Program-made: the position numbers and the translations under genes
The notes under the pieces: model-generated
What the model saw: only the letters and a program-made list of their open reading frames with translations
Database searches by the model: none
What the model was told of the DNA's origin: nothing
Origin: Mariniflexile fucanivorans
GTDB taxonomy: Bacteria > Bacteroidota > Bacteroidia > Flavobacteriales > Flavobacteriaceae
Reading direction: 5' to 3'
NCBI RefSeq assembly: GCF_004341235.1
Contig: NZ_SLUP01000004.1
Span: 186,001 to 250,000, forward strand
DNA: 64,000 nucleotides
Part shown: piece after piece, positions 1 to 63,909 of the stretch
How the letters are laid out: every line of letters starts with the position of its first letter
How positions within the stretch are numbered: position 1 is the stretch's first letter

Positions 1-72
1 AACTTCCATATTATTATCTTGACTATACACGTAAAACGAGCACAAAATAAAAATGAATACCAGTTTTTTCAT
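1..72 (-). CDS. N-terminus of an exported protein (runs off left edge)
   Basis: On the minus strand an ATG at 70-72 opens a frame that stays open to the window edge (24 codons). It reads MKKLVFIFILCSFYVYSQ followed by DNNMEV, a typical Bacteroidota signal peptide with a cleavage-like YSQ. It begins 7 bp after the LytTR response regulator stop codon, so the two are probably co-transcribed. In this group such regulators often sit next to an exported sensor histidine kinase with TPR repeats. That identity is an inference, because nothing beyond the signal peptide is visible. Confidence 0.55.
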   Translation of the reverse strand, partial: MKKLVFIFILCSFYVYSQDNNMEV

Positions 73-2522: not shown

Positions 2523-3716
2523 ATGAATTTACACGAATATCAAGGTAAAGAAATATTAAGCAGCTTTGGCGTGCGTATCCAGCGTGGTATTGTTGCTCAA
2601 AGTGCACAAGAGGCAGTAACTGCTGCAAAACAACTAAGCGCTGAGACAGGTACGAGTTGGTATGTTATAAAAGCACAAGTACATGCAGGTGGACGTGGTA
2701 AAGGTGGCGGTGTAAAACTTGCTAAAAACCTTAAGGAAGTAGAAGATATCTCTGGACAAATAATAGGAATGAACCTTATTACACCTCAAACATCGGCGGC
2801 GGGTAAAAAAGTTCATCAAGTCTTAATAGCTGAAGATGTTTATTATCCAGGAGAAAGTGAGACAAGTGAATTCTATATGTCTGTACTCTTAAACAGAGGA
2901 ACAGGACGTAATATGATCATGTATTCTACTGAAGGTGGTATGGATATTGAAACAGTTGCAGAAGAAACACCTCATTTAATTTTTACTGAAGAAATTGATC
3001 CGACCGTAGGTATTTTACCTTTTCAAACACGACGCATTTCTTTTAATTTAGGTTTATCTGGTAACGCTTTTAAAGAAATGACAAAGTTTGTTACCAATCT
3101 ATATACTGCTTATGTAAAATCTGATTCTTCTTTATTTGAAATCAATCCGGTTTTAAAAACAAGTGATAATAAAATACTGGCAGTGGATGCTAAAGTAACC
3201 ATTGACGATAATTCACTTTTCAGACATAAAAACTATGTTGATTTACGTGATGTACGTGAAGAAAGCGCTATTGAAGTTGAAGCTGGAGCCTTAGGCTTAA
3301 ATTATGTAGATTTAGATGGAAATGTTGGCTGTATGGTTAATGGAGCTGGTTTAGCCATGGCAACTATGGATTTAATAAAACAAGCAGGTGGTGAGCCAGC
3401 AAACTTTTTAGATGTTGGTGGTACTGCTGATGCAGCTCGTGTGGAAGCAGCATTTAAAATCATATTAAAAGATCCAGCTGTAAAAGCTATTTTAATTAAT
3501 ATTTTTGGTGGCATTGTACGTTGCGATCGTGTAGCACAAGGTGTTATTGACGCTTACAAAAACATGGGAACTATTAATGTGCCAATTATTGTGCGTTTAC
3601 AAGGAACCAATGCAGATATTGCAAAAGAGTTAATTGATAATTCTGGTTTGGATGTAATGAGTGCAACCGAATTTCAGGAAGCGGCCGATAAAGTACAACA
3701 AGTACTAGCTTCATAA
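2523..3716 (+). CDS. sucC: Succinyl-CoA synthetase, ADP/GDP-forming, beta subunit
   Basis: TCA-cycle enzyme that interconverts succinyl-CoA and succinate with substrate-level phosphorylation, working as a heterotetramer with SucD. The 397 residues match the family length. The N-terminal ATP-grasp half begins [12 protein letters not shown] and has the glycine-rich [15 protein letters not shown] loop. The C-terminal ligase half carries [23 protein letters not shown] and [10 protein letters not shown]. sucD is not adjacent, which is common in flavobacteria. The gene stands alone between its own promoter and a hairpin. Confidence 0.97.
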
Positions 3717-26395: not shown

Positions 26396-26914
26396 TTAAT
26401 TCCAGTTTTCGTCAAAATCCAAACCGTCGTAATCTTCTATGTCTAAATCGTCTTCAAACTCGTCAAAATCGTCGTAGTCATCATCGGCATCAAATATTTT
26501 TTCTGGAGCTTCATCGGGTATTTGCCCATGTACAAACATTAAGTTAGGATAATCGACATCTTGGTTTTCTTCAACTATTTCAGCTAATTCTACAAAAAAC
26601 GTCCACATACTTAAAAAGTCGTACACATAAATAAGTCTTGGTTGAAGTTCATGAACCACATCGTTAATGGTGGTTTCACTCATTAAACGCGCAGATGCTT
26701 CACCCTCACTTAAATCGAATAATGAAATTTCTTCACCTTGATCCCATTGGTTATTACTTAAATAAAAGGAAGCCATTTCTGTACCATCAAATCCAAAGGA
26801 TTGGGTAATAATGTTATGTAAATCTTCAAGGGTGTCGGTTTCACGAATTTCTAAATCGCGAAACACATCATCGTCAACATCGTTATCAAGTATAACTCTA
26901 AATCTGTAAATCAT
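26396..26914 (-). CDS. pRiA4b ORF-3-like (TnpR-passenger type) protein
   Basis: A 172-residue cytoplasmic protein with the pRiA4b ORF-3 fold signature: YRFRVILDNDVDDDVFRDLEI, then DTLEDLHNIITQSFGFDG and MASFYLSNNQWDQGEEISLFDL. The tail (last ~35 residues) is almost entirely D, E, F, Y. The family was first noted on plasmids and transposon passengers but is a common chromosomal single gene in Bacteroidota. There is no transposase nearby, so mobility is not implied. Function is unknown. Confidence 0.82.
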   Translation of the reverse strand: MIYRFRVILDNDVDDDVFRDLEIRETDTLEDLHNIITQSFGFDGTEMASFYLSNNQWDQGEEISLFDLSEGEASARLMSETTINDVVHELQPRLIYVYDFLSMWTFFVELAEIVEENQDVDYPNLMFVHGQIPDEAPEKIFDADDDYDDFDEFEDDLDIEDYDGLDFDENWN

Positions 26915-50015: not shown

Positions 50016-53000
50016 ATGAAAAGAAGTTTATGTCTTATTATTTTAAGTTTTTGCTGTAATTTTATTTTCGGACAGTATACAAACCTTAAGTTCGAAAACC
50101 TAAATACAGACAAGGGGTTATCGAGTAGTACCTGTTTGGAGGTTTTTCAAGATAGTCAAGGGTTTTTGTGGTTTGGTACTATTGATGGGCTTAATAAGTA
50201 CAATGGCTATGAGTTTAAAGTATTCAGACCTATTATTAATGACTCTACCTCCATAAGTAATAATAGAATAAATGCCATTCAAGAAGATAAACAAGGAAAT
50301 CTTTGGATTGGCACAAACAATGGCTTGAATTTGTACAACAGACATACAAATACATTTCATCAAATACCGCTTTACAAACAGCCTCTTATTACATACAATC
50401 CTAAAAAAATTATAAATTCTTTGTTGTATAATAAGGATGAAAATCAACTTTGGGTAGGTACGAGTAGTGGTTTAGTAAAGCTATCATTACATGATGATAC
50501 GAGTGATATTAATAATTTAAACCCAGTACATTATTCTTTTAAATTTAATACGGTAACTAGTTTAGACAATAATAATGTAAACGTTATTGTAAAAGATAAG
50601 GATGGTTTTATTTGGGTGGGAACGAACGGACAGCATTTAAATAAATACAATCCTAAAACAGATGATTTTTATAGAGTTTTAATTGAAAGTAAAACACCAT
50701 ACGAATTAAATCATATCCCAAAACGATTGTTTATTGATTCTGATAACGATTTTTGGATTGGTAACGATGCCTCAAATTTTATTTTGTGGCAAAGGAAAAC
50801 AAACACTTTTAAACAGGTTAAACTTACTAATACAAGCGTGCCCTTTTATGAGTTTTATCAAGATGCATCTGGAATTATTTGGATTGTTACAGATGGTTCT
50901 GGTATTTTTTTATATAACAAGAAAACTGGAGAAACACAGCAGTTAGAGCATAACCCCATGGATCCTTTTTCTTTGCCAGGAAATCAAATTTCCGATGTGA
51001 TTCAAGGGAAAGATGGCATTTTTTGGTTAGGAACTTATAATCAAGGTATTTGTAAATTAGATATTACTAAGTCCAATTTCGGGCATTACTACTACAAAAA
51101 GGGAACAAAAAACGGTTTAAATGAGAAGATAGTACAATCGGTACTTCAAGATTCCAAAGGGCGTATTTGGATAGGTGCCTATAATGGCGGTTTGAATTTG
51201 TTTGATGATAAGGACAATACTTTTACAACCTTTAGCCATGATCCTAACGATGCAGAGTCCTTAAGCTCCAATAAAATGTTGTACACATTTGAAGCTAACG
51301 ATGGCGATATTTGGGTATGCACTTTAGATGGAGGCCTTAATAAATTTAATCCGGAAACACATAAAAGTAAACGGTTTTTTCATGAAGAGTTGGATGATTC
51401 TACCATTGGTCAAAATTCGGTTTGGACCGGTGTAGAGGACAATAAAGGTAGAGTTTGGTTGGGTTTAAGAGATGAAGGTTTGGATTTATTTGATACAAAA
51501 AATAAAAAATTCCATCATTATAAAATAGGAAATAGCAAAGCAGATGGATTGTTGAGCAATTTTGTTTTTTCATTATTTATAGATTCAAAACAACGGCTTT
51601 TGGTGGGTACCTCTTTAGGTTTAAATTATATTAACCCTAATGAGTTGAAAAATGAATTTCCTAAAGAAATTAAATTTAACGATGTAAATGTTGAAGGTAT
51701 AGCAGGAAACCGAATAAACTACATTGTTGAAGATCATTTGCACAATATTTGGTTAGGTACAGATATTGGTATTTACATATTAGATTCACAACTCAATTTA
51801 GTAAAATCTTATTTTACCCAAGATGGTTTGCCCAATAATTTAATTACAGGATTAAAAGAAGACCATTTTCATAATTTTTGGATTACCACAAGAAGTGGTT
51901 TGTCGTTTTTAAATCCTAAAACGAATCAATTCAAAAACTTTAATACCCACGATGGTTTACAGGGGATGGAATACCAAAGTAAATCCATCGAAATAACTGA
52001 TGACGGACGTATTCTGGCAGGAGGTATTAATGGTTTTAATATTTTTAATCCCAAAGATATTGTTATTACCTCTTCAGCAAAACTACTTCCAACTATATCT
52101 GGATTGAAAATAAATGATAAATATGTTCAAGTAGGTGATAAAATAAATAATAAGTTTACTTTAAAAAAACCACTTTCAGAAGCAGACCATATTACATTAA
52201 ACTATAATCAATCCAATTTATCATTCGATTTTATAGCACTTCATTATCAAAACCAAGAGCAAGTAAAATATGCTTATAAAATGGAAGGGCTTAATGATGA
52301 ATATGTTGTGGCTGGTAACAATAGAGTTATAAACTATTCCAATTTGCAACCTGGAGATTATGTTTTTAACGTGAAAGCTTCGGTAGATGGTGATTGGGAT
52401 ACGGCTCCAGCAGCTTCAGTTAATATCATAATTAATTCTCCACCTTGGAAAACTTGGTGGGCCTATGCGCTTTATGTAATTATTGCAGCGGTAATCTTAT
52501 GGTTTTTCCAAAAATATTATACCGAAAGTGTTAATAGTGAAAAGGAACGTGAATTCGACCAGATGAAACTGGAGTTTTTTATAAACGTTTCTCATGAGTT
52601 CAGAACGCCTTTAACGTTGATTTTGAATCCGTTGGATAAATTAATAACAGGTTTTAATGATGCCGAAGTTGTAAAAACATCTGCCATGTCCATTCAACGA
52701 AGTGCCCGACGTTTATTGTATCTCGTAAACCAGTTATTGGATTATAGAAAAATGGAAGTAGGTATGGCGCCTCTACAATTACAAAAAGGAGATATCATCA
52801 AGTTTAGTAACGATATTTTTACCCTTTTTAAAGGAGTTGCTTCAAAAAAAGGAATTGATTATGTTTTTTCATCCACTTCAGAGCAATTATTTTCTTTTTT
52901 CGATTTTGATAAAATAGAAAAGATACTTACCAACTTAATTTCAAATGCTATTAAATTTACAGAAAGTGGTGGGGAGATTAAGGTATCAGTAAATAGGTTT

Positions 53001-54185
53001 TCAGAGAAAACCAGAAACTTAAACTTTCTTAAACAAGATAAGAAAAAATTAGATTCCTATATTGAAATAGTTGTTGAAGATACTGGTATTGGCCTTGATA
53101 AAGAACAACTTAAAAAGATATTTTCGCGCTTTTATAATGTGGATCCACATAAAACAGGTACAGGTATTGGTTTAAATTATACACGTGGTTTGGTTGAACT
53201 TCATGGCGGAGAAATTTTTGTGGAAAGCCAATTCAATAAAGGCAGTAAATTTGTTGTTAGAATTCCTTATAATAAATCGGCAGAGTCAAGTGTTATTAAT
53301 AATGTGAAGGATGAGTTTTTAATAAACTCAATGAAATCTGTTGAGTACGATATGCTTATATCTGATGCTAGCCAAAAGTATGATGATAAAGTGGAAACAA
53401 CAGAGAAGGGCGAATTGCCTACCATATTAATTGTTGAGGACAATAAAGAGCTAAGGGAGCATTTAAGGAATGAACTGAAAATCCGTTATCACATTATTGA
53501 AGCTGTAAATGGGGAAGAAGGGTTGGAAAAAGTATTAAAACATTACCCAGATATTGTTGTTAGCGACGTAATGATGCCAAAAATGGATGGTTTTGAATTG
53601 TGCAAAAAAATAAAATCGGAATTTGAAACCTGTCACATCCCAGTGATTTTATTAACGGCCCGTGCTTTAGAAGAAGATAGAATAGAAGGCTATAAAACAG
53701 GGGCAGATGGTTATTTAGGAAAACCATTTAATTTAAATGTTTTAAAAGCAAGAATTGCTAATTTATTGGAATCTAAACGAATCCTTAGAGAAAAATTCTC
53801 AAAACTTGGGGCTGTTATAAGCTCAAATGAGGTGACCAGTAATTCTATAGATGAAGCATTTCTTGAAAAAACCACCAAAGTTATTTTAGATAATATTAGC
53901 GATATCGATTTTAAATTGGAGCATTTATTGAAAGAAATAGGTATTGGTAGGTCTCAGTTTTACAGAAAAATACAATCTATCACAGGGCAAAACCCAAGTA
54001 ATTTTATTCGAACAATTAGATTGAAATATGCTTCAGAATTATTACTTAAAGGTGCATATACCATTAAAGAAATAACGCATATGTCTGGCTTTAATTCGGC
54101 TGCTTATTTTGGTAAAACTTTCCGTGAATTATATGATATGACACCTAGTGAGTACTTAGAGCAGAATAAGAAAGAAGATGCATAA
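50016..54185 (+). CDS. Hybrid two-component system sensor/AraC regulator (HTCS)
   Basis: 1389-residue regulator spanning the inner membrane. A signal peptide (MKRSLCLIILSFCCNFIFGQ) is followed by a periplasmic domain of about 14 propeller blades (repeated W-x-G-T pattern: FLWFGTIDGLNKY, LWIGTNNGLNLYN). A Y_Y_Y domain (about 740-805) and a membrane span near 812-835 follow. Inside the cell come a histidine kinase (H860 in VSHEFRTPLTLI), an ATPase domain, a receiver with D1184 in SDVMMPKMDGFEL, and a C-terminal AraC helix-turn-helix (about 1285-1385). These proteins bind an oligosaccharide in the periplasm and activate the neighbouring polysaccharide locus. Four matching operator modules lie downstream. 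No domain is missing. Confidence 0.97.
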   Translation: MKRSLCLIILSFCCNFIFGQYTNLKFENLNTDKGLSSSTCLEVFQDSQGFLWFGTIDGLNKYNGYEFKVFRPIINDSTSISNNRINAIQEDKQGNLWIGTNNGLNLYNRHTNTFHQIPLYKQPLITYNPKKIINSLLYNKDENQLWVGTSSGLVKLSLHDDTSDINNLNPVHYSFKFNTVTSLDNNNVNVIVKDKDGFIWVGTNGQHLNKYNPKTDDFYRVLIESKTPYELNHIPKRLFIDSDNDFWIGNDASNFILWQRKTNTFKQVKLTNTSVPFYEFYQDASGIIWIVTDGSGIFLYNKKTGETQQLEHNPMDPFSLPGNQISDVIQGKDGIFWLGTYNQGICKLDITKSNFGHYYYKKGTKNGLNEKIVQSVLQDSKGRIWIGAYNGGLNLFDDKDNTFTTFSHDPNDAESLSSNKMLYTFEANDGDIWVCTLDGGLNKFNPETHKSKRFFHEELDDSTIGQNSVWTGVEDNKGRVWLGLRDEGLDLFDTKNKKFHHYKIGNSKADGLLSNFVFSLFIDSKQRLLVGTSLGLNYINPNELKNEFPKEIKFNDVNVEGIAGNRINYIVEDHLHNIWLGTDIGIYILDSQLNLVKSYFTQDGLPNNLITGLKEDHFHNFWITTRSGLSFLNPKTNQFKNFNTHDGLQGMEYQSKSIEITDDGRILAGGINGFNIFNPKDIVITSSAKLLPTISGLKINDKYVQVGDKINNKFTLKKPLSEADHITLNYNQSNLSFDFIALHYQNQEQVKYAYKMEGLNDEYVVAGNNRVINYSNLQPGDYVFNVKASVDGDWDTAPAASVNIIINSPPWKTWWAYALYVIIAAVILWFFQKYYTESVNSEKEREFDQMKLEFFINVSHEFRTPLTLILNPLDKLITGFNDAEVVKTSAMSIQRSARRLLYLVNQLLDYRKMEVGMAPLQLQKGDIIKFSNDIFTLFKGVASKKGIDYVFSSTSEQLFSFFDFDKIEKILTNLISNAIKFTESGGEIKVSVNRFSEKTRNLNFLKQDKKKLDSYIEIVVEDTGIGLDKEQLKKIFSRFYNVDPHKTGTGIGLNYTRGLVELHGGEIFVESQFNKGSKFVVRIPYNKSAESSVINNVKDEFLINSMKSVEYDMLISDASQKYDDKVETTEKGELPTILIVEDNKELREHLRNELKIRYHIIEAVNGEEGLEKVLKHYPDIVVSDVMMPKMDGFELCKKIKSEFETCHIPVILLTARALEEDRIEGYKTGADGYLGKPFNLNVLKARIANLLESKRILREKFSKLGAVISSNEVTSNSIDEAFLEKTTKVILDNISDIDFKLEHLLKEIGIGRSQFYRKIQSITGQNPSNFIRTIRLKYASELLLKGAYTIKEITHMSGFNSAAYFGKTFRELYDMTPSEYLEQNKKEDA

Positions 54186-54227: not shown

Positions 54228-54293
54228 TGGGCATTGATTTACTTGATTTGATTCATATTTTATAATATTCTTAGAAAAGTATTTTTATACTTG
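54228..54293 (+). promoter_or_regulatory. Two-site operator and -7 box before GH88-1
   Basis: Distal site 54228-54243 (GGGCATTGATTTACT core), proximal site TGATTCATATTTTATA (54249-54264), 21-bp period, then TATACTTG (54286-54293) after a further 21 bp. No -33 TTG is present at the expected distance, which fits an activator-dependent promoter. Confidence 0.7.
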
Positions 54294-54360
54294 TAGTTAT
54301 AACTTAACTTAAAAAATGCTTGCCTAATTAGTAGTGTTTTTTCATTTAAAGAATTATGAT

Positions 54361-55560
54361 ATGAGAATTTTTAAAATTATTTGTGTTGTTTTTTTAACTG
54401 CCACTCTTTTTGCAAGTTGTGCCAATGAAAAAAAGAAAACACCAAAAACGGATGTTGAAATAGTACTGGACCAAAGTACAACAAAACTAAAAAAAGCTTT
54501 AAAACATCTAAAAAGCTACGATAGCTTGCCTAGAAATATACCAAATGGAAAAAAACATTGGAAACTAGTTGGTGTAAAAGATTGGTGTAGTGGCTTTTGG
54601 CCTGGTGTGTTATGGTATGGTTATGAGCATTCTGGTAACGATTCTATAAAAATAGCAGCCGAAAAATTTACCGAAGCAGTAAAGCCTATTGCTTATTCCA
54701 GTGCAGAAGATCACGACATAGGTTTTCAAATATATTGTAGTTTTGGTAATGGCTACCGTTTAACTGGAAATGAATCTTACAAAGAAGTTATGTTGGCTGC
54801 AGCCGATACTTTAGCAACTTTATATAATCCTATAGTTGGTGCTATTCAGTCTTGGCCTTCAAAGACGGAAATTTATCCACACAACACCATTATTGATAAC
54901 ATGATGAATTTAGAGCTATTATTCTGGGCTGCTAAAAATGGAGAAAATAAAGATCTTTATAATATTGCGGAAAGTCATGCCAATATAACCATGAAATATA
55001 TTGTAAGACCAGATAGTGCCGTATATCATTTGGGCGAGTTCAACGATAAAACAGGCGAATTTATTAAAGGGCATACGCACCAAGGCTATGCAGATGAGTC
55101 TATGTGGGCTAGAGGACAAACTTGGGGTATTTATGGCTTTGCATTGGCATATAGAGAAACCGGTAGGGACGATTTTTTAAATACATCAATCAAATTAGCT
55201 GACCATTTTTTAAACCGTTTGCCAGAAGATGGTATTCCGTATTGGGATTTTGATGATCCAAAAATCCCAAATGCACCTAAAGATGCTTCGGCAGCGGCTG
55301 TTGCAGCTTGTGGTATGCTTGAATTAGCTAACGTATTAAAAGATGAAAAGTTAAAAACAAAATACACCAATGCCGCTAAAAAGTTTGTGAAAATTCTTTC
55401 AACTGAAAAATATTTAAGTGGAAAAACAAATGATGCTTTATTGTTGCATTCAACAGGGCATCATCCTAAAGGTACCGAAATTGATGTTCCAATTATTTAT
55501 GCCGATTATTATTTTATGGAGGCATTAACACGGTTGGAAAAATTAGAGTCATCTCAATAA
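54361..55560 (+). CDS. GH88 unsaturated glucuronyl hydrolase, lipoprotein (copy 1)
   Basis: Hydrolyses the unsaturated uronic acid that polysaccharide lyases leave on the non-reducing end of oligosaccharides. From the ATG at 54361 the protein has 399 residues with a lipobox ending at C20 (LFASC). The alpha6/alpha6-barrel has the two acidic catalytic positions of GH88: D119 in EDHDIGF and D179 in NTIIDNMMN. It also has WCSGFWPGVLWYGYE, GYADESMWARGQTWGIYGFA, IPYWDFDDP and DVPIIYADYYFMEAL. The first in-frame ATG (54334) is rejected because it would precede the signal peptide. A close paralogue lies at 56988. Confidence 0.94.
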   Translation: MRIFKIICVVFLTATLFASCANEKKKTPKTDVEIVLDQSTTKLKKALKHLKSYDSLPRNIPNGKKHWKLVGVKDWCSGFWPGVLWYGYEHSGNDSIKIAAEKFTEAVKPIAYSSAEDHDIGFQIYCSFGNGYRLTGNESYKEVMLAAADTLATLYNPIVGAIQSWPSKTEIYPHNTIIDNMMNLELLFWAAKNGENKDLYNIAESHANITMKYIVRPDSAVYHLGEFNDKTGEFIKGHTHQGYADESMWARGQTWGIYGFALAYRETGRDDFLNTSIKLADHFLNRLPEDGIPYWDFDDPKIPNAPKDASAAAVAACGMLELANVLKDEKLKTKYTNAAKKFVKILSTEKYLSGKTNDALLLHSTGHHPKGTEIDVPIIYADYYFMEALTRLEKLESSQ

Positions 55561-55597
55561 TATGATGTTTTTTAAAAAAATAAAAAAATCAGTAAGT

Positions 55598-56467
55598 ATG
55601 AAAAATTTTAAACTTATTATTTGTGCATGTTTCATATTAAGTGTGCCACAATATTTTTATGGGCAAACCATACCCTATAGCATAGGCCGAATAGTAGTAA
55701 GCTCAGATGGAAATGAGCACGACCACGACGATTGGGCAGCAACACCCTTCACACTCGCTTTATTGGCAGCTAGAAATTTACAAGATAAGTTAACCGTTTA
55801 CACGTTTAGCGACCACATTTGGGGAAGTAATCACGATAAAAGTGATGGCAAGGAGCAAATGCTTAAAAGTGCTTTAGAAGGGAAAGATATCTACCATTTT
55901 AATAAATCTAATTTTATTGAAGCCGTTCAAGATTCAACAAAAGCTATAAATGCCATTACCAAACAAATTAATAAATCTAGCAAAAAAGACCCTTTAACTA
56001 TTGTTGCTGCAGGCCCCATGCAGGTTGTAGGGAGTGCCATTCAAAATGCAAAAAGTTCTAAATTGAAATATGTTCGTATTATTTCTCATTCAAGCTGGAA
56101 TGATAACCATGCCGATAAACCGAACGATTGGGAACAGCATTCCGGTTGGACATGGAAAGAAATAAAAGAAAAGTTTGAGCCAAAAGGACTGATTATAGAT
56201 AGAATAGTAGATCAAAACGGAGGGAAGGATTATGAAGGTATGAAAGCACCTAAAGAGCAATTCGATTGGATTAAAACTACTCACATTCGTGAAAACTCCG
56301 TGGAAAATAAAAAACAGTTAGATTGGTTATATTCTAGACAATTAACCTGTGTTAAAAAAGGTGATTTCGATCCGTCTGATGCTGGTATGGTTATTTATTT
56401 ACTTACAGGTAAACAAAAAACAAATCCAGATGATGCTAGAGCTATTATTGAGAATTTTGTTAAATAA
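55598..56467 (+). CDS. Exported nucleoside-hydrolase-like protein of unknown substrate
   Basis: 289 residues from the ATG at 55598, which gives the signal peptide MKNFKLIICACFILSVPQYFYGQ. The mature start IGRIVVSSDGNEHDHDDWAA resembles the N-terminal Asp cluster of the inosine-uridine nucleoside hydrolase fold. LTIVAAGPMQVVGSAIQNA resembles its G-P-x-T/x-N segment. The classic DTDxxxDD is altered to D-G-N-E-H-D-H-D-D, so a normal nucleosidase role is doubtful. It is placed between two GH88 genes under the same regulator, so action on a sugar or glycoside released from the locus substrate is plausible. Start and fold are fairly sure, function is not. Confidence 0.7.
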   Translation: MKNFKLIICACFILSVPQYFYGQTIPYSIGRIVVSSDGNEHDHDDWAATPFTLALLAARNLQDKLTVYTFSDHIWGSNHDKSDGKEQMLKSALEGKDIYHFNKSNFIEAVQDSTKAINAITKQINKSSKKDPLTIVAAGPMQVVGSAIQNAKSSKLKYVRIISHSSWNDNHADKPNDWEQHSGWTWKEIKEKFEPKGLIIDRIVDQNGGKDYEGMKAPKEQFDWIKTTHIRENSVENKKQLDWLYSRQLTCVKKGDFDPSDAGMVIYLLTGKQKTNPDDARAIIENFVK

Positions 56468-56851
56468 TAAATTATAATGATGAAATTTTTTTAACTAAAT
56501 CAAAAAACATTTTAGCCAGCCTCTTGTGTTTTTCTCATTTTATTTGATTTTTTAGGGTTTAATACCCCGAAGCTTACGCGTCTTCATTTATGGAATTTGA
56601 AATTTCCTTTTTTTTAGAATTTATGCCTCATGGGATTGCCCTGAATTAGTTTAAGAGTGGTACAAAATGTAAAATTTAAAATTATAAAAAAGTCTGTTAA
56701 TAGAAAACTAATTAAATCTGAGCAATCAGAAATGATGCAAATTGGATAATAATTTAGAATGGATTTTCAAACCATATTTTATCAATTGAAACAAATATAT
56801 TCTTTGTTCGAACCAAGTTTTATTAGCAAACAGAGGGGTTTAAAGCCGAAA
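56468..56851. other. Intergenic region without a visible gene
   Basis: About 380 bp with no coding frame. A GC-richer islet at 56555-56590 (GGGTTTAATACCCC followed by GAAGCTTACGCG) and a nearby GGGATTGCCCTGAATTAG look like dispersed-repeat fragments. The operator of GH88-2 begins at 56852. Confidence 0.4.
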
Positions 56852-56917
56852 AGGGTATTAATTTATTAAAAATGATTCATAGTTTATATCAAAAAAAAGT
56901 AAGTATTAATATACTTG
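56852..56917 (+). promoter_or_regulatory. Two-site operator and -7 box before GH88-2
   Basis: Distal AGGGTATTAATTTATT (56852-56867), proximal TGATTCATAGTTTATA (56873-56888), and TATACTTG (56910-56917), with spacings identical to the GH88-1 copy. No -33 TTG. Confidence 0.7.
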
Positions 56918-56987
56918 CATAGTAACATATAACTAAAACTTGGATATGTGTTTTTTTTAAAATTTGTAAAACAAACAAAAATAGTAT

Positions 56988-58211
56988 ATGAGAATTTTCA
57001 AACTTGCTTCTGTAGTTATATGTATAGCATCCCTGTTATCTTGTAATAATCAAAACAAAAAGAAAAGTGAAGACACGGCTATGGTAACCGTCAAAACAAA
57101 CGAGGAAATTGTGCTTGATAAAAGTGTAGTTAAACTTAAAGAAGTTTTGGGGAGTTTAAAATATGCTGATAGTTTTCCAAGAAACATTACCAAAGGTCAA
57201 AAAGAATGGAATGTTGTAGGTGTTAGAGATTGGTGCTCTGGTTTTTGGCCAGGAGTTCTTTGGTATGCGTATGAATATTCTAATGACGAGGTTTTAAAAG
57301 CAGGTGCAGAAAAGTTTACAGAGCCTTTAAAAACGATTGCATATACGCCCGCTGATAATCATGATGTTGGTTTTATGGTTTACTGTAGTTATGGTAATGG
57401 TTATAGGCTTACAGGTAATGAAGAATATAAAAAAATATTATTAGCTGCCGCCGATACGTTAGCAACACTCTACAGCCCTAAAGTAGGGACTATTTTGTCG
57501 TGGCCAAATATGAAACATGAATTTAAATACAATACCATTATTGACAATATGATGAATTTAGAGCTTCTTTTTTGGGCAGCCAAAAATGGGGGTGATAAAA
57601 AGTTATACGACATGGCAGTAAGTCATGCAGATGTTTCAATGAAACGTTTAGTGCGTCCAGATTACTCTATTTATCATGTAACATGTTTTGACGAAAAAAC
57701 AGGTGAGTTTATCGAAGGTAAAACACACCAAGGATATGCCGATGAGTCTATGTGGGCTAGAGGACAAGGATGGGGTATTTATGGTTTTGCGATGTCTTAT
57801 CGTGAAACAGGTAAAGAAGAATACTTAGCAACAGCACAAAAATTAGCCGATCACTTTATAGAACGTTTACCAGAAGACGGTATTCCTTATTGGGATTTTG
57901 ACGATCCTAAAATCCCAAATGCACCAAAAGATGCTTCAGCGGCAGGTGTTGTTGCTTGTGGTATGTTAGAGCTGTCTGAGCAGTTAAAAGATGAAAAATT
58001 AAAAGAAAAGTATTTAAATGCAGCTAAGGATTTGATAACACGTTTAAGTTCTGATGAGTATTTAAGTGGTAACACCAATGATGCACTCTTGTTACACTCA
58101 ACTGGGCATTTTCCTAATAATTCTGAAATAGATGTGCCTATTATTTATGCCGACTATTACTTTATGGAAGCCTTATTAAGATTAAGAAAAATTGAAAGTA
58201 AAAACATATAG
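56988..58211 (+). CDS. GH88 unsaturated glucuronyl hydrolase, lipoprotein (copy 2)
   Basis: 407 residues with a lipobox at C19 (ASLLSC). It has the same barrel and motifs as copy 1: NHDVGFMVYCSYGNGYRL, NTIIDNMMNLELLFWAAKNG, GYADESMWARGQGWGIYGFA, IPYWDFDDPKIPNAPKDASA. The two differ mainly in the linker after the lipobox and around SWPNMKHEFKYN versus SWPSKTEIYPHN, close to the +1/+2 sugar sites. This could mean different linkage or sulfation preferences. It has its own operator and promoter and is followed by a terminator. Confidence 0.94.
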   Translation: MRIFKLASVVICIASLLSCNNQNKKKSEDTAMVTVKTNEEIVLDKSVVKLKEVLGSLKYADSFPRNITKGQKEWNVVGVRDWCSGFWPGVLWYAYEYSNDEVLKAGAEKFTEPLKTIAYTPADNHDVGFMVYCSYGNGYRLTGNEEYKKILLAAADTLATLYSPKVGTILSWPNMKHEFKYNTIIDNMMNLELLFWAAKNGGDKKLYDMAVSHADVSMKRLVRPDYSIYHVTCFDEKTGEFIEGKTHQGYADESMWARGQGWGIYGFAMSYRETGKEEYLATAQKLADHFIERLPEDGIPYWDFDDPKIPNAPKDASAAGVVACGMLELSEQLKDEKLKEKYLNAAKDLITRLSSDEYLSGNTNDALLLHSTGHFPNNSEIDVPIIYADYYFMEALLRLRKIESKNI

Positions 58212-58261
58212 AGTTAGTTTGTTATTTTAGTTAGTTTATGAAACTTAGTTTCATTTTGAGT

Positions 58262-58296
58262 AGCCCTTTAAAATTATGTTTTAAGGGGCTTTTTGT
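58262..58296 (+). terminator. Intrinsic terminator of GH88-2
   Basis: Twelve-base arms AGCCCTTTAAAA / TTTTAAGGGGCT (one G-U), loop TTATG, then TTTTTG. Confidence 0.85.
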
Positions 58297-58440
58297 ATGT
58301 GTTATTTTTAAATAGTTAAGTTTAAAAAACAATTTATTGATGCTTGAAGTTTCTTTTTTTTATGAAAATTTAAGATTTAAAAGTGTAAAATGTATTTATA
58401 TGCTTTTTTATAATTTAATTATATGATTTTGTGCTTAAAA

Positions 58441-58506
58441 TGAATCATAATTTATAAGAATTGCATCATGATTTAGATAATTAATAAATTAAAACATATA
58501 CATTGT
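58441..58506 (+). promoter_or_regulatory. Two-site operator and -7-like box before susC
   Basis: TGAATCATAATTTATA (58441-58456) and TGCATCATGATTTAGA (58462-58477), 21-bp period, then TACATTGT (58499-58506) at the same offset as in the GH88 promoters. A ~170-nt leader follows, containing direct repeats AACTCTAAATT (near 58545 and 58630) and a short hairpin AGAGTT/AACTCT. Confidence 0.65.
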
Positions 58507-58678
58507 TTAACATAATTTTAACATTAGATTCGATGTTTTTTCGAACTCTAAATTGTTAATAATCTAACAAATTAAACTATGAGTAAAAAAGATTGAAAAT
58601 TATCACCATTAAAGAGTTTGTAGTTAATAACTCTAAATTCAACTAAATTCTAATTATTTACTATCAAAAAAACTATTT

Positions 58679-61600
58679 ATGAACAAAACAATTAAACTAA
58701 AAAAGATCTATTTAAAGCTGGTTATGTTATTGGCTTTGTGGTTAAGCTTTTCATTTAGTGCATTACATGCAACTACAGATGTAAAAATAGATGAGCAGAA
58801 CAGAACAATAAAAGGACAAGTCATCAGTGCTGACGACAACATGGGTTTTCCCGGTGTTAACATATTAGTAAAAGGAACAAATATTGGAGCTGTTACAGAT
58901 TTTGATGGAAACTACACTATTAATGTTCCATCAACAAATGCTGTTTTAGTATTCTCTTATATTGGGTTTAAATCTAAAGAAATTACTGTAGGAAATAACA
59001 AAACCATTAATGTCACTTTGGAAGCAGATGTTTCTGCATTAGATGAAGTTATTGTTGTTGGATATGGAACACAAAAAAAGGAATCCTTAACAGGATCTAT
59101 AGAACAGGTTACCTCTGAAGTTTTTGAAAATCGCGCTGTCACTAATGTGGCGTTGTCATTACAAGGGCAATCACCTGGATTAGTGGTTAATAGAACTTCT
59201 TCGCGACCAGGTAATGAAGGTATTGGTTTGCAAATTAGGGGTGCTACTTCAGTTAATGGAGGAAGCCCGTTAATTGTAATCGATGGCGCTCCTGCATTTG
59301 ACGACAGTGAGTTTTACCAAATGAACCCAGATGATATCGAATCTATAAGCGTTCTTAAAGATGGTGCTGCGTCTATATATGGATCCAGAGCAGCAAATGG
59401 TGTAATTTTAGTTACGACTAAAAAAGGTAAGGGTAAAATGAAGGTTGAATTTAATTCCATGCTTAGAATGAATTTCTTAGGCTTAAGACCTCCTGTTCCA
59501 TCTTATCAGCAATATGGACAATTATGGTTGGATGCCGCAGAACAAGATACTACTCCCAATTATTGGAACTGGGGAGAAGCAACTATAAGATCTTTTGCAG
59601 CTGGCTAATCTGGATTTTTTCAAACCCCTACCACCGTTTGGGGATATAATGGATTAATATATATGGCTCCAGCAAACAGATACGATGATTTGTACGGATC
59701 TAACACAGGGCATCAAGAAAGTTTAAGCCTTTCTGGAAGTTCAGACCAAGCAAGATATAGGTTATCTTTTGGCCTCTCCGAATCTGAAGGTGCTTTAAAA
59801 GTAGCTTATGATGGTATAAAACAATATTCTGTAAGACTAAATACTGATTTTGATATTTCAGAAAAATTAACTTTAGGAGCGAATGTTTCCTTGCAAAAAA
59901 ATATTGTTTCTAGCCCTTCATCTTCGTTTGGACAAGCTCTAGTGTCACAAGACCCTCCAGTTTTTCCTGTAAAAAACCCTGATGGGCAATGGTATGCAAA
60001 CTTTGGTAATGCAGGAGGAACTAATTCTATCGCTGGTATTTCAGATGGTGGTAGAGATAATACAGAAGAGACTTTAGCGAAAATTGCTTTGAATCTTAAA
60101 TATGATATAGGTTATGGGTTTAGTGCCAATGCAAGTGCAACCTATAACCAGGTGAACAGCAGACAAGATATTACTATTTTAAATGTATTACTTTATAATT
60201 GGAACGGTGAAGTAGCTAATAACTCAATAAATCAAAATCCAAGTATTGAATCTATAGGTATTACTAAATCTTATCAAACCTATGGTGGTTTTTTAAACTA
60301 TGAGAAAAGCTTAAGCGATCATAACTTTAAAGCCATGGTTGGTATTACTGCTGAAAAGAATGATTTTCAATCACTTTCTGGAAAGAGATTTGGTATCGTA
60401 GATGAAGGAGTATATGATTTAAATGTTGCTACAGGGATTCAGGAAAATGAAGGAGGTCAAACACAAGAAGGTCTCTATTCTTATTTATCTAGAATTAATT
60501 ATGATTATCAAGAAAAATACTTAGTTGAATTTGTTGGTAGACGTGATGGCTCATCTAGATTTGCAGATGGATTTAAATTTAATAATTACGGTAGTGCATC
60601 TGTTGGCTGGAATGTTCATAAAGAAAGTTTTATGGAAAACCTTGATGTTTTAAGCAATTTAAAAGTTAGAGCTAGTATTGGTTCAAGTGGTAATCAAGTA
60701 GGTATTGGTCCTTATGATTATGTATCTACCATAGGAACAGGTACTGCACTTTTTGGTGAAGGAGGGACCTTAAGTGCAACTTCATACATTGATGGACTAA
60801 CAACTACCACTCGTTCGTGGGAAGATGTTGAAATGAAGAATATTGGTATTGATTTTGCGCTGTTTAACAACAAACTTTCTGGTAGTTTTGATACCTACGA
60901 AAGAAAGAACAACGGGATGCTTGTTGGTGAAACCTTCCCTACAGTTTTAGGTGTTCCTGAAGTGCCGGAAACAAATATTGGAAACTTAGTAACCAAAGGA
61001 TGGGAAGCCATGTTAAATTGGAAAGATACAAAAGGAGATTTTTCTTACAACATTGGCGTTAATATGAGCGACAGCAATAATATTTTAGTTAATCTAGAAG
61101 GAGGAAGTGCCATACAATCAGGTTTACGTACAACAGTTGAAGGCTATCCATTAAATTCTTATTTTGTTTGGGAAACAGATGGACTGTTCCAAACACAAGC
61201 AGAAGTTGATGCCTATAATGCACTTTATAATAAATCTGGATCAGAAGTCCCAACGGGTGCTTCGGCATTGCGTATTGGAGATACCAGAAAAGTAGATTTA
61301 GACGGTAATGGGCTTATTAACGATCAAAATGCAGCAGACCCAAACGGAAAAGGACAAGGCGATGTTAAATTTGCAGGAGATGCTCAGGCTCACTATATTT
61401 TTGGTATTAATTTAGGTGCTAAATATAAAGGTTTTGATTTCACAGCCTTTTTTCAAGGTGCTCTAGAACAAAAAGTGAGTAGAGCGGGTGTTAATAATTT
61501 CCCATTCAACAATCCTTGGCCAAACCAAACCATTGCTTATAATGGTCTTACATGGACTGAACAAAATACGGGAGCCACTTACCCTAGGTTGACTGCACAA

Positions 61601-61885
61601 AGAAATCTAGCACGATGGAACTGGACTGATACTGATGTCTTTCTTCAAAATAATAGATATATCCGCCTTAAAACATTAGTTATAGGGTACTCATTACCGT
61701 CTAGCATTTTAGATAAATTAAAAATGGACAAAATAAGATTTTATTTTTCTGGAAATGATCTTTTTGAGTTTAGTTCTTTAGTTGATGGTTTTGATCCTGA
61801 ATCTGGAACTGCTTCCGTTACGGATGATAGATCCATATATCCATTTCAACGTACTATTGCGTTTGGAGTTAATTTAGCGTTTTAA
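58679..61885 (+). pseudogene. susC: SusC-like TonB-dependent outer-membrane transporter, interrupted by in-frame TAA
   Basis: Outer-membrane receptor that imports oligosaccharides with a SusD lid. Codons 1-309 (58679-59605) hold the signal peptide, a carboxypeptidase-like domain (KGQVISADDNMGFPGVNILV), the VVGYGTQKKESLTGS motif and the plug (GVILVTTKKGKGK). Codon 310 is TAA (59606-59608). The same frame then continues without a shift, SGFFQTPTTVWGYNGLIY then MAPANRYDDLYGS, through the whole beta-barrel to 61885 (FQRTIAFGVNLAF). The total of 1068 codons is normal for SusC. It is therefore a single nonsense change or a base-call error; an independent start at 59663 for the second part is unlikely to give a working protein. 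susD follows directly. Confidence 0.9.
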
Positions 61886-61928
61886 GATTATGAAAAAGAT
61901 ACTAATAATTGACAAAAAAAATATACAA

Positions 61929-63710
61929 ATGAAAAAAATAATAATATCATTATCAGCAGTTCTATTTTTACTGGTAGGCTGTGAAGATACATTTCTGGAT
62001 TTGCAAGATTTAGATAGTGTCACAGAACAGGTTTATTTTGATGAACCTCAAAATTTCGAAGATGCCTCCAACTATTTTTACAGAGGTTTACATTCTCCTA
62101 AAGCAACAAAGGGGGATGGATTTGCTGAAATTACAGATTATGGCACGGAATTAAATGGATACGTACAAGATTACGGGCAAGGTATTAACACCGCTACAGA
62201 TGAAGACATATATTGGAATAATGCCTATGATTATTTAAGAGAGGTAAACCTTTTACTTGATAAAGCAGATGCGTATACTGCTAATGGTGGTAATGCAGCA
62301 GACATAAGTAAATATGTTGCAACAGCCTATTTTTTTAGAGCGTATCATCATTTTAGATTATTAAAACGCTTTGGAGGCGTGCCTATTGTAATTGAAGTAA
62401 CCAATGTAGATTCTCCAATTCTATTTGCTCCAAGAAATAGCAGGTACGAAGTTGTAGCACAAATTCTGGCAGATTTAGATTTAGCTATTGCAGGGTTACC
62501 TGCAACGGCAAATGGTGCTGATCTTGGAAAAATTAGTAGTATAGCTGCAACAGCTTATAAAGCACGTGTACTTTTATTTGAAGGTACCTGGGAAAAATAT
62601 GTAGGTACTGCCACCGATGGTGATGGCACTAATAGTGGTGCAGGTTCTACAAAACCTTCAGGCTATCCTGCTGTGGATGCTATGTTTAATAGTGTTGTAC
62701 AAGCGGCAAAAGCTGTCATGGATAGTGGGCAATTTGAAATTTGGAACAAAAATGCTGACCCAAATATGGAAAACAATTCGTATAAATGGTTATTTTCTAT
62801 AGAAGGTGCAGATTCAAACCCTGGAGGTTACACTAAAGCTTCAAATAAAGAATTCATTATTCAAACTATTTTTGACTATGAATCAACTAATCGCATAGGC
62901 AGTCAGTTTACTCAAATTAACTTTGGTAGAAATGCACCTACACAAGTAGCATTAGACATGTATTCAACATTAGATGGTTTACCAATAAATAAATCGACTC
63001 AATTTCAAGGTTATGCCAAACAATCTGATCAATTTATAAATAGAGATCGTAGAATGTGGGGTAATTTTGGTGAACTTATACTAGCAAACGGGTCTCGCCA
63101 AATTTCTGCTATTGGTTCTGTTGGATTATCTAATTTATCGAATTGGAAATGGACTACTTGGAATAATTATAGATCTGTTAGAGAAGAAGGCTATAATTAT
63201 CCACATTTAAGATATGCCGAAGTATTACTTACTTATGCAGAGGCTTTGTATGAGCGTGATGGTTCTATTTCAGATGCCGATTTAAATCTATCTATTAATT
63301 TAATTAGAGCAAGAGCAGGTATTGCACCTTTAACAAATACATTGGTTACTACTAATAACTTGAATATGTTAGATGAAATTAGAAGAGAAAGAACAGTAGA
63401 ATTGTATATGGAAGATAACAATCATTGGAACGATATACACAGATGGGATACAGCCAAAACTCTATTAAATGACGATTTAATTGGATATGTTATTGAAGGT
63501 TCAGAATATGAAACAAATACAGCTCTTTTTAACCCAGCAATTGCTATTTATGGTTATAAAAATGATTACCCATCTGGAAAAGGTCCTGTTAAGGCTTTAA
63601 TTATTGATCCAGTTAGTACTAGAATTTATAGTCAAAAAAATTATTTATGGCCATTACCAATAAATGAAACGGTAATAAATACAAATTTAAAACAAAACCC
63701 AGGCTGGTAA
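61929..63710 (+). CDS. susD: SusD/RagB-type surface glycan-binding lipoprotein
   Basis: Lid of the SusCD complex on the cell surface, binding the imported oligosaccharide. The ATG at 61929 gives 593 residues and a lipobox (AVLFLLVGC). The ATG at 61890 would put 13 extra charged residues before it. SusD features are LDLQDLDSVTEQVYF near the N-terminus, TPR-like helices with ATAYFFRAYHHFRLLKRFGG, and the C-terminal RYAEVLLTYAEALYE, INLIRARAGI, EIRRERTVELYMEDNNHWND and QNPGW. The gene starts 43 bp after the susC stop. Sequence does not identify the glycan. Confidence 0.95.
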   Translation: MKKIIISLSAVLFLLVGCEDTFLDLQDLDSVTEQVYFDEPQNFEDASNYFYRGLHSPKATKGDGFAEITDYGTELNGYVQDYGQGINTATDEDIYWNNAYDYLREVNLLLDKADAYTANGGNAADISKYVATAYFFRAYHHFRLLKRFGGVPIVIEVTNVDSPILFAPRNSRYEVVAQILADLDLAIAGLPATANGADLGKISSIAATAYKARVLLFEGTWEKYVGTATDGDGTNSGAGSTKPSGYPAVDAMFNSVVQAAKAVMDSGQFEIWNKNADPNMENNSYKWLFSIEGADSNPGGYTKASNKEFIIQTIFDYESTNRIGSQFTQINFGRNAPTQVALDMYSTLDGLPINKSTQFQGYAKQSDQFINRDRRMWGNFGELILANGSRQISAIGSVGLSNLSNWKWTTWNNYRSVREEGYNYPHLRYAEVLLTYAEALYERDGSISDADLNLSINLIRARAGIAPLTNTLVTTNNLNMLDEIRRERTVELYMEDNNHWNDIHRWDTAKTLLNDDLIGYVIEGSEYETNTALFNPAIAIYGYKNDYPSGKGPVKALIIDPVSTRIYSQKNYLWPLPINETVINTNLKQNPGW

Positions 63711-63757
63711 GATAATAGAAAGCAAGCATTAATTATTTTGAGTTAGCCACTCTTTTT

Positions 63758-63796
63758 AAAAGCAGTTATAGATTTTCTATAACTGCTTTTTTTTAT
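63758..63796 (+). terminator. Intrinsic terminator of susCD
   Basis: Perfect 14-bp arms AAAAGCAGTTATAG / CTATAACTGCTTTT, loop ATTTT, T-run after. Confidence 0.92.
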
Positions 63797-63843
63797 AAGA
63801 AAAATTCAAACAAAAACACTCCAATTTAGTTAACCTCAACAAA

Positions 63844-63909
63844 TGAGCTATAGTTTATATGGAATGAGTTATAATTTATATGATAAGACACGAATAGTTT
63901 TTAAAATTG
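63844..63909 (+). promoter_or_regulatory. Two-site operator and -7 box for the next locus gene
   Basis: TGAGCTATAGTTTATA (63844-63859) and TGAGTTATAATTTATA (63865-63880), 21-bp period, then TAAAATTG (63902-63909) at the same offset as the other three modules. It predicts that the gene starting at 63994 belongs to the same regulon. Confidence 0.65.

Follow-up and report, generated by a model that had tools for sequence, protein, structure and literature searches.

A tandem two-site operator recurs at promoters of a polysaccharide locus in Mariniflexile fucanivorans, and each copy is very probably the operator of the adjacent hybrid two-component system (HTCS) regulator, which would bind it as a tandem dimer and activate transcription in a class II arrangement. 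The DNA under study, hereafter the window, is a stretch of 64,000 nucleotides (C4:186001-250000, C4 being contig NZ_SLUP01000004.1) from a genome of 4.74 Mb in 29 contigs, hereafter the home genome. A preliminary description of the window had reported four such elements downstream of the HTCS gene, and all four are confirmed to the base: each consists of two 16-bp sites with a 5-bp spacer and is followed by a TA box (at 54286, 56910, 58499 and 63902) that starts exactly 37 bp past the start of the proximal site. In window coordinates, the regulator and the elements are:

50016..54185, + strand: HTCS, the proposed binder, with Reg_prop sensor, Y_Y_Y, HisKA, HATPase_c, receiver and AraC-type helix-turn-helix (HTH) domains (Pfam)
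54228..54243, + strand: element 1, distal site, weak, TGGGCATTGATTTACT
54249..54264, + strand: element 1, proximal site, TGATTCATATTTTATA
54286..54293, + strand: element 1, -7-like box, TATACTTG
56852..56867, + strand: element 2, distal site, AGGGTATTAATTTATT
56873..56888, + strand: element 2, proximal site, TGATTCATAGTTTATA
56910..56917, + strand: element 2, -7-like box, TATACTTG
58441..58456, + strand: element 3, distal site, TGAATCATAATTTATA
58462..58477, + strand: element 3, proximal site, TGCATCATGATTTAGA
58499..58506, + strand: element 3, -7-like box, TACATTGT, TA to TTG shorter by one base
63844..63859, + strand: element 4, distal site, TGAGCTATAGTTTATA
63865..63880, + strand: element 4, proximal site, TGAGTTATAATTTATA
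63902..63909, + strand: element 4, -7-like box, TAAAATTG, preceding a GH29 fucosidase gene

The earlier argument that this geometry is not due to chance holds when the window is ranked with an outside matrix, built from 99 elements of other genomes only and without use of the box: the four elements come out on top (38.3, 34.6, 29.3 and 22.3), the next best score at period 21 is 10.9, and 20 Markov-1 simulated windows reach 15.3 at most. Among the periods tried in the window (17-25), several strong matches occur at 21 only. At period 25 the outside matrix finds one match (20.9), at 56743, upstream of element 2. For a home matrix, 16 candidates were listed, of which 13 served as seeds and the ambiguous 370414, 372883 and 372904 were left out; leave-one-out scores of the seeds range from 19.6 to 38.3, the reversed sequence peaking at 13.4 over 224 kb, and the non-seed candidate 372904 is recovered by the scan. 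The four reported elements are among the seeds and had been picked with the box in view, so that box counts are best judged on the 99 non-home elements. The consensus first quoted, close to TGAnTYATAnTTTATA, describes the proximal sites better than the distal ones, which are weak in elements 1 and 2. On the minus strand, the home matrix gives a site at 26884 of the window 15.1, which exceeds the reversed control, and the outside matrix gives it 10.9. Single 16-bp sites were rejected as a regulon marker (40 matches at no more than one mismatch versus 23 for the reversed pattern).

Operators across the locus and in other genomes

The window is only the edge of the operator-bearing locus. Four promoters had been claimed, and about 19 are found once the locus beyond the window is scanned: with the home matrix (score at least 19, C4:186001-410000), 19 tandem operators, all on the + strand, span C4:240228-385500, or ~145 kb, and six of them were not seeds, the reversed sequence again reaching 13.4. 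Among the genes after operators are those for two GH88 hydrolases, a SusC, fucosidases of families GH29 and GH95, two sulfatases, a member of the alginate-lyase family, a protein resembling acetylesterases and a kelch protein, as well as leucine-rich repeat (LRR) proteins that carry type IX sorting domains and a protein with a fasciclin domain, behind whose gene lies a further SusC-like one. A Pfam scan of part of the locus open reading frames (70 ORFs, six of them cut at stretch ends) adds glycoside hydrolases of families GH3, GH28, GH30, GH31, GH39, GH43 and GH97, a GH120 insertion domain, a GH141 insertion domain (one of two above cut-off), DUF2961 and heparinase-like proteins, and brings the sulfatases to nine; KduI is also present (NCBIfam). 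We infer from these sequences that the target glycan is probably a polysaccharide that contains fucose and uronic acid and is both sulfated and acetylated.

Genome-wide matches had been expected to concentrate in this locus, and they do. A pattern of sites plus box (22 fixed bases, at most three mismatches), which recovers only 11 of the 19 locus elements, gives 14 matches in the home genome, 11 of them in the locus, with 2 control matches; over 20 genomes it gives 174 versus 36. Two off-locus matches, C8:27620 and C15:15276, were set aside as chance-like, with three mismatches each. The strongest off-locus element in the home genome is C1:793870 (minus strand, score 26.1), ~65 bp upstream of a gene whose product, a secreted protein of 1251 aa, combines an alginate-lyase domain, CBM6 modules and a type IX sorting tail. 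The pair pattern without the box yields 43 matches versus 16 in the control; among the 32 off-locus loci then scored with the matrix (L007-L021, L030, L042, L043, L047-L060), 28 have nothing of at least 10, three lie at 11-16 and the remaining one is C1:793870, while another 22 off-contig matches were left unscored, the sites-plus-box pattern having covered the whole genome. The matrix scan finds no operator upstream of the HTCS gene itself in the home genome; in Flavobacterium ajazii (L156), an operator does precede it.

Across genera, the operators track the close HTCSs. Two family samples (299 and 397 genomes) gave 19 foreign genomes with a close HTCS, and in all 19 an operator scoring at least 18 lies in the 40 kb around it (lowest in G335, 18.7). 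Operators are also present at 8 of 8 further loci with an HTCS identity of 51-61% (Maribacter, Flavobacterium and one Flammeovirgaceae metagenome-assembled genome, MAG), which hold 16 operators of at least 18, ten of them before SusC-like or GH88 genes as judged by homology to home proteins. The motif is therefore near 28 of 28 HTCSs of this clade (home, 19 and 8), versus none of 72 loci of distant HTCS-like proteins with an operator of at least 16 (27-41% identity, 1.24 Mb), some of these proteins being short or from outside Bacteroidota. In the same genus, G323 has 23 operators and G383 has 13 (score at least 18, 180 kb each). In two genomes the locus is split: parts of it lie ~1.4 Mb (G014, C1:2265354-2309619) and ~2.3 Mb (G335, C1:33623-85581) from the HTCS gene and keep 7 and 6 operators. 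The unlinked 60-kb stretches there match 42 and 37 home locus proteins at E 1e-40 (some by paralogy) and contain no HTCS homologue at that threshold, and each genome has one close HTCS. We take it that the operator travels with the genes and that the regulator would act in trans. Four homologous GH88 promoters likewise keep the operator and the TA and TTG of the box.

The genes of the locus that lie in the window are:

54361..55560, + strand: GH88-family hydrolase, first gene after element 1 (Pfam PF07470)
55562..56467, + strand: 301-aa protein without Pfam match, homologues in G323 and G383
56988..58211, + strand: second GH88-family hydrolase (Pfam)
58679..61885, + strand: SusC-like transporter, two ORFs (58679-59608, 59663-61885) around an in-frame stop
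61890..63710, + strand: SusD-like lipoprotein (Pfam)
~63982, extending beyond the window, + strand: GH29 fucosidase gene

The in-frame stop, at 59606-59608 in this assembly, falls in the SusC-like gene directly under element 3 and reflects either a pseudogene or a sequencing error. Both ORF pieces match a single long SusC-like ORF in relatives, the 740-aa piece alone having no Pfam match at 0.001; in seven relatives of the Maribacter/Flavobacterium/Flammeovirgaceae set, the SusC-like genes downstream of operators are single long ORFs. Further into the locus, C4:328549-335648 (L034, L035) carries a sigma factor gene, an apparent anti-sigma factor gene behind it, and a second SusCD pair, whose SusC gene (C4:330528) has no HTCS operator directly before it in the matrix scan. 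The sigma factor and this pair suggest a second control circuit inside the same locus. At C4:364949-374703 (L036, L037), BspA-type LRR proteins with type IX sorting tails are clustered, most with an operator of their own; a role in surface glycan binding or adhesion is possible.

Promoter geometry, the regulator and rival readings

The distance from operator to box was counted over 118 distinct elements, 19 from the home genome and 99 from elsewhere, the latter chosen without the box (G321, G348, G370 and the HTCS side of G335 are left out of the count). TA and TTG stand at +37 from the proximal-site start in most of them: in 68, of which 62 are among the 99 non-home elements, TAnnnTTG begins exactly at +37, versus 12 (8 outside home) for all other offsets from 17 to 92 together, while a one-base-shorter form, nAnnTTGY, accounts for 17 elements and TAnnTT without the G for 18. 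Behind the same operator there are two box forms, TAnnnTTG and nAnnTTGY, the latter resembling the SM5 motif of Flavobacterium psychrophilum, which has been suggested to belong to an alternative sigma factor (PMC9723704, text in part). A T at offset 33, four bases upstream of the -7 box, is found in 88 of the 118, often within ATTnT at 29-33, and may form an extended -7 element. Relative to the transcription start, the TAnnTTTG box of F. psychrophilum occupies -12 to -5 (PMC9723704, text in part); by that measure our distal sites would fall near -70 to -55 and the proximal ones near -49 to -34. With the start taken from that source, the proximal site occupies the -33 position, where TTG is nearly absent. 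The absence of the -33 TTG, previously noted where it was checked, extends to the whole set, a TTG starting at offsets 14-18 in only 7 of 118 elements, and for this reason the promoters look activator-dependent. Such site placement is the class II geometry familiar from AraC.

The HTCS is a single polypeptide that combines a sensor propeller, HisKA, HATPase, receiver and AraC HTH (HTH_18, aa 1306-1382; Pfam). Its receiver has a CHIP motif, and the S/CHIP motif has been tied to a DNA-binding domain that is silenced until phosphorylation (PMC11253607, text in part). An AlphaFold2 model of the receiver-AraC fragment has a mean predicted local distance difference test (pLDDT) score of 83.5; a sequence search matched the solved HTCS protein 12aw, and a fold search gave mainly receiver-domain structures among the best 50 matches. 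We propose that glycan fragments would bind the periplasmic Reg_prop/Y_Y_Y sensor, leading to phosphorylation of the receiver and release of the AraC-type domain. Two HTCS subunits could then bind head-to-tail, each to one of the 16-bp direct repeats, which a period of 21 bp (two turns) places on the same DNA face, and the promoter-proximal subunit, at the -33 position, would recruit RNA polymerase to the -7 box. A single HTCS might in this way co-activate about 19 transcription units over the ~145-kb locus, and probably one distant lyase gene (C1:793870) too. What the sequences themselves show is the sites with their geometry and conservation, their occurrence alongside this HTCS clade and their change next to a changed DNA-binding domain; the binding, its dependence on phosphorylation, the activation and the sugar signal are all predicted.

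The motif follows the DNA-binding domain: at the closest paralogue within the home genome (C2:508885, 61% across receiver and AraC domain; about ten other HTCS-like regulators are encoded there), sites and domain have diverged together. The paralogue has two elements of the same geometry with 5' halves little changed; in their 3' halves, TTTATA is replaced mostly by GTTGGA-like sequences (also by ATATTGA, GTTTGA and TTTCTG). Their scores, 13.6 and 13.4, compare with a local reversed control of 8.3 and a largest reversed control of any region of 14.0, and we believe them because G323, of the same genus, carries comparable elements at matching places (16.6 and 10.8; a 12.7 between them is unrelated), one of the elements standing just past the HTCS gene in G323 as at home. 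Twelve positions separate the paralogue pair from the clade. At 1314, 27 of 28 clade DNA-binding domains have Q, and at 1363 all 28 have A, where both paralogues have H and T. We single out these two substitutions because of where they fall: in the model, each sits close to the N terminus of the second helix of its HTH (fragment residues 188 and 237; helices 186-197 and 236-247), and these second helices we presume to be the recognition helices. S1321T also lies in a presumed recognition helix, T being found in two clade members with a normal motif, and at L154 an H at 1314 accompanies a partly altered motif. Our hypothesis is that Q1314H and A1363T may be behind the switch of the 3' half-site; it is a hypothesis because ten other positions differ as well, and a lead because the link rests on about one divergence event. 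On a small scale, the paralogue pair allows a test of how cross-talk between duplicated HTCSs ends.

Several points weigh against operators that are activated by the HTCS. Operator binding, transcription starts and activation are predictions from DNA sequence, and other conserved neighbours in the locus may be binders. In the home genome by itself, TAnnnTTG stands at +37 in only 6 of 19 elements; 15 of the 118 have none of the box forms there, the strict sigma-A form TAnnTTTG is a minority (2 of 19 home elements, 5 of 50 in relatives), several elements have a poorly conserved distal site, and C1:793870 lacks a canonical +37 box. That the -33 position is covered by the proximal site would also suit an HTCS that mainly represses, the unphosphorylated protein blocking that region until the sugar signal releases it, and BT2391, a Bacteroides HTCS whose inhibitory motif deviates, has been cited as a repressor of its own polysaccharide utilization locus (PUL) (PMC11253607, text in part). 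We consider repression improbable, since the home HTCS keeps the CHIP motif that is tied to a silenced DNA-binding domain (PMC11253607, text in part) and since promoters that lack the -33 TTG look activator-dependent.

The assignment to the HTCS being a prediction, and a sigma factor gene (C4:328549) lying inside the locus, the repeats could also serve that sigma factor or a second transcription factor, with the HTCS a bystander. This is very improbable: the motif tracks the HTCS clade across genera and was not found at the distant HTCS loci, it changes at the paralogue, it persists in unlinked parts of the locus in genomes with a single close HTCS, its layout is that of published HTCS sites, and the SusC gene at C4:330528, behind the sigma factor, has no operator directly upstream. 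Chance, helically phased A/T tracts or non-functional duplicated leaders could profit from the raised lag-21 background of AT-rich intergenic DNA; they have next to no likelihood given scores far above the reversed and simulated controls, a +37 box that is fixed in non-home elements chosen without it, and an operator that is kept among homologous promoters.

A possible 37/21 rule at other HTCS loci

The same geometry could hold as a rule for the HTCSs of Bacteroidota at large, with two direct repeats of 16 bp at a 21-bp period and a -7 box whose start lies exactly 37 bp past that of the proximal repeat. On balance we lean slightly towards such a rule, under which the specificity of paralogues would be set largely by their recognition helices. 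It was looked for at HTCSs outside the clade by comparing 16-bp windows at intergenic -7-like boxes in a grid of 27 offsets by 14 lags (378 cells), over 72 and 29 loci (101 loci, 580 boxes). In the first set (72 loci), the cell (37, 21) has the highest number of strong self-matches among the 378, namely 13. In the second set (29 loci) it ranks first by count (9) and fifth by mean, one of the nine strong matches having already been in the first grid, as had nine own-genome HTCS loci in the form of 3-kb stretches. For both sets together it is first by count (22 versus a cell mean of 4.96, standard deviation 2.8) and also by mean. With five decoy boxes, or in non-HTCS DNA, (37, 21) does not lead; the decoy AT...GTT reaches 19 at (29, 21), and the best control cell, (39, 21), has 7. 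A first non-HTCS control was discarded as biased, containing loci selected by tandem patterns, and replaced by another. The lag-21 background is raised in AT-rich intergenic DNA, including the non-HTCS control DNA and the decoy boxes, and a motif-free test in which the lag alone varied gave a weak peak at 21, sharper in its offset-by-lag version. Because of this background of phased A/T tracts at lag 21 and of the decoy with 19 at (29, 21), the rule is likely rather than established. At a Bacteroidales MAG locus (L224), three promoters (boxes at 3258, 6362 and 11865) share a different repeat, near GGAnCATAAGTGTTA, with the same 21/37 geometry. If the rule is true, the operator of any orphan HTCS could be read from the adjoining promoters.

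Comparison with known systems

To our knowledge, neither the targets nor the glycans of most HTCS-like proteins of environmental Bacteroidota are known. Here, a base-exact operator at a fixed distance from the promoter allows the regulon to be read directly (about 19 units over ~145 kb), even where the locus is split. At araBAD, I1-I2 are direct half-sites of ~17 bp at a 21-bp period, the proximal one abutting the -35 region, as bound by a class II activator of the AraC/XylS family. The present case differs in that a membrane HTCS, probably gated by phosphorylation, takes the place of a soluble sugar-binding protein, and in its Bacteroidota -7 box. Like the sigma-A and SM5 promoters of F. psychrophilum (PMC9723704, text in part), our promoters have TA and TTG at -7 in a long and a one-base-shorter form (TAnnTTGY there); unlike them, they mostly have TAnnnTTG instead of TAnnTTTG, and the operator replaces the -33 TTG.

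The preliminary description knew of no published site for this regulator, and for the Flavobacteriaceae we likewise found no published HTCS site, coverage of subscription papers and preprints being partial and absence therefore unproven; the available parts of PMC12125979, PMC11501099, PMC5061871 and PMC10766802 contain none. The architecture, in contrast, has a precedent in Bacteroides: for 16 of 36 B. thetaiotaomicron HTCSs, direct-repeat motifs were predicted with tandem sites averaging 21 bp apart, HTCS dimers on one DNA face were proposed, and the sites of HTCS_Man are 16 bp long, separated by a 5-bp spacer (Ravcheev et al. 2013, PMC3878776, text in part). Our operators resemble these in their direct repeats at ~21 bp, or two helical turns, before PUL operons and with an AraC-domain HTCS. 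They differ in the genomes and host family, in the motif (TGAnYnATAATTTATA, compared by layout and not by logos), in a measured spacing to the -7 box (neither "transcription start" nor "promoter element" occurs as a term in the main text of PMC3878776, as far as available), and in their number, about 19 in one locus. The finding is well supported and mechanistically ordinary in kind; its scale and the share of the regulon that can be read from sequence are unusual. The operator fits the published HTCS kind, to which it adds a new motif, a fixed -7 spacing, the size of the regulon and signs that the spacing is general.

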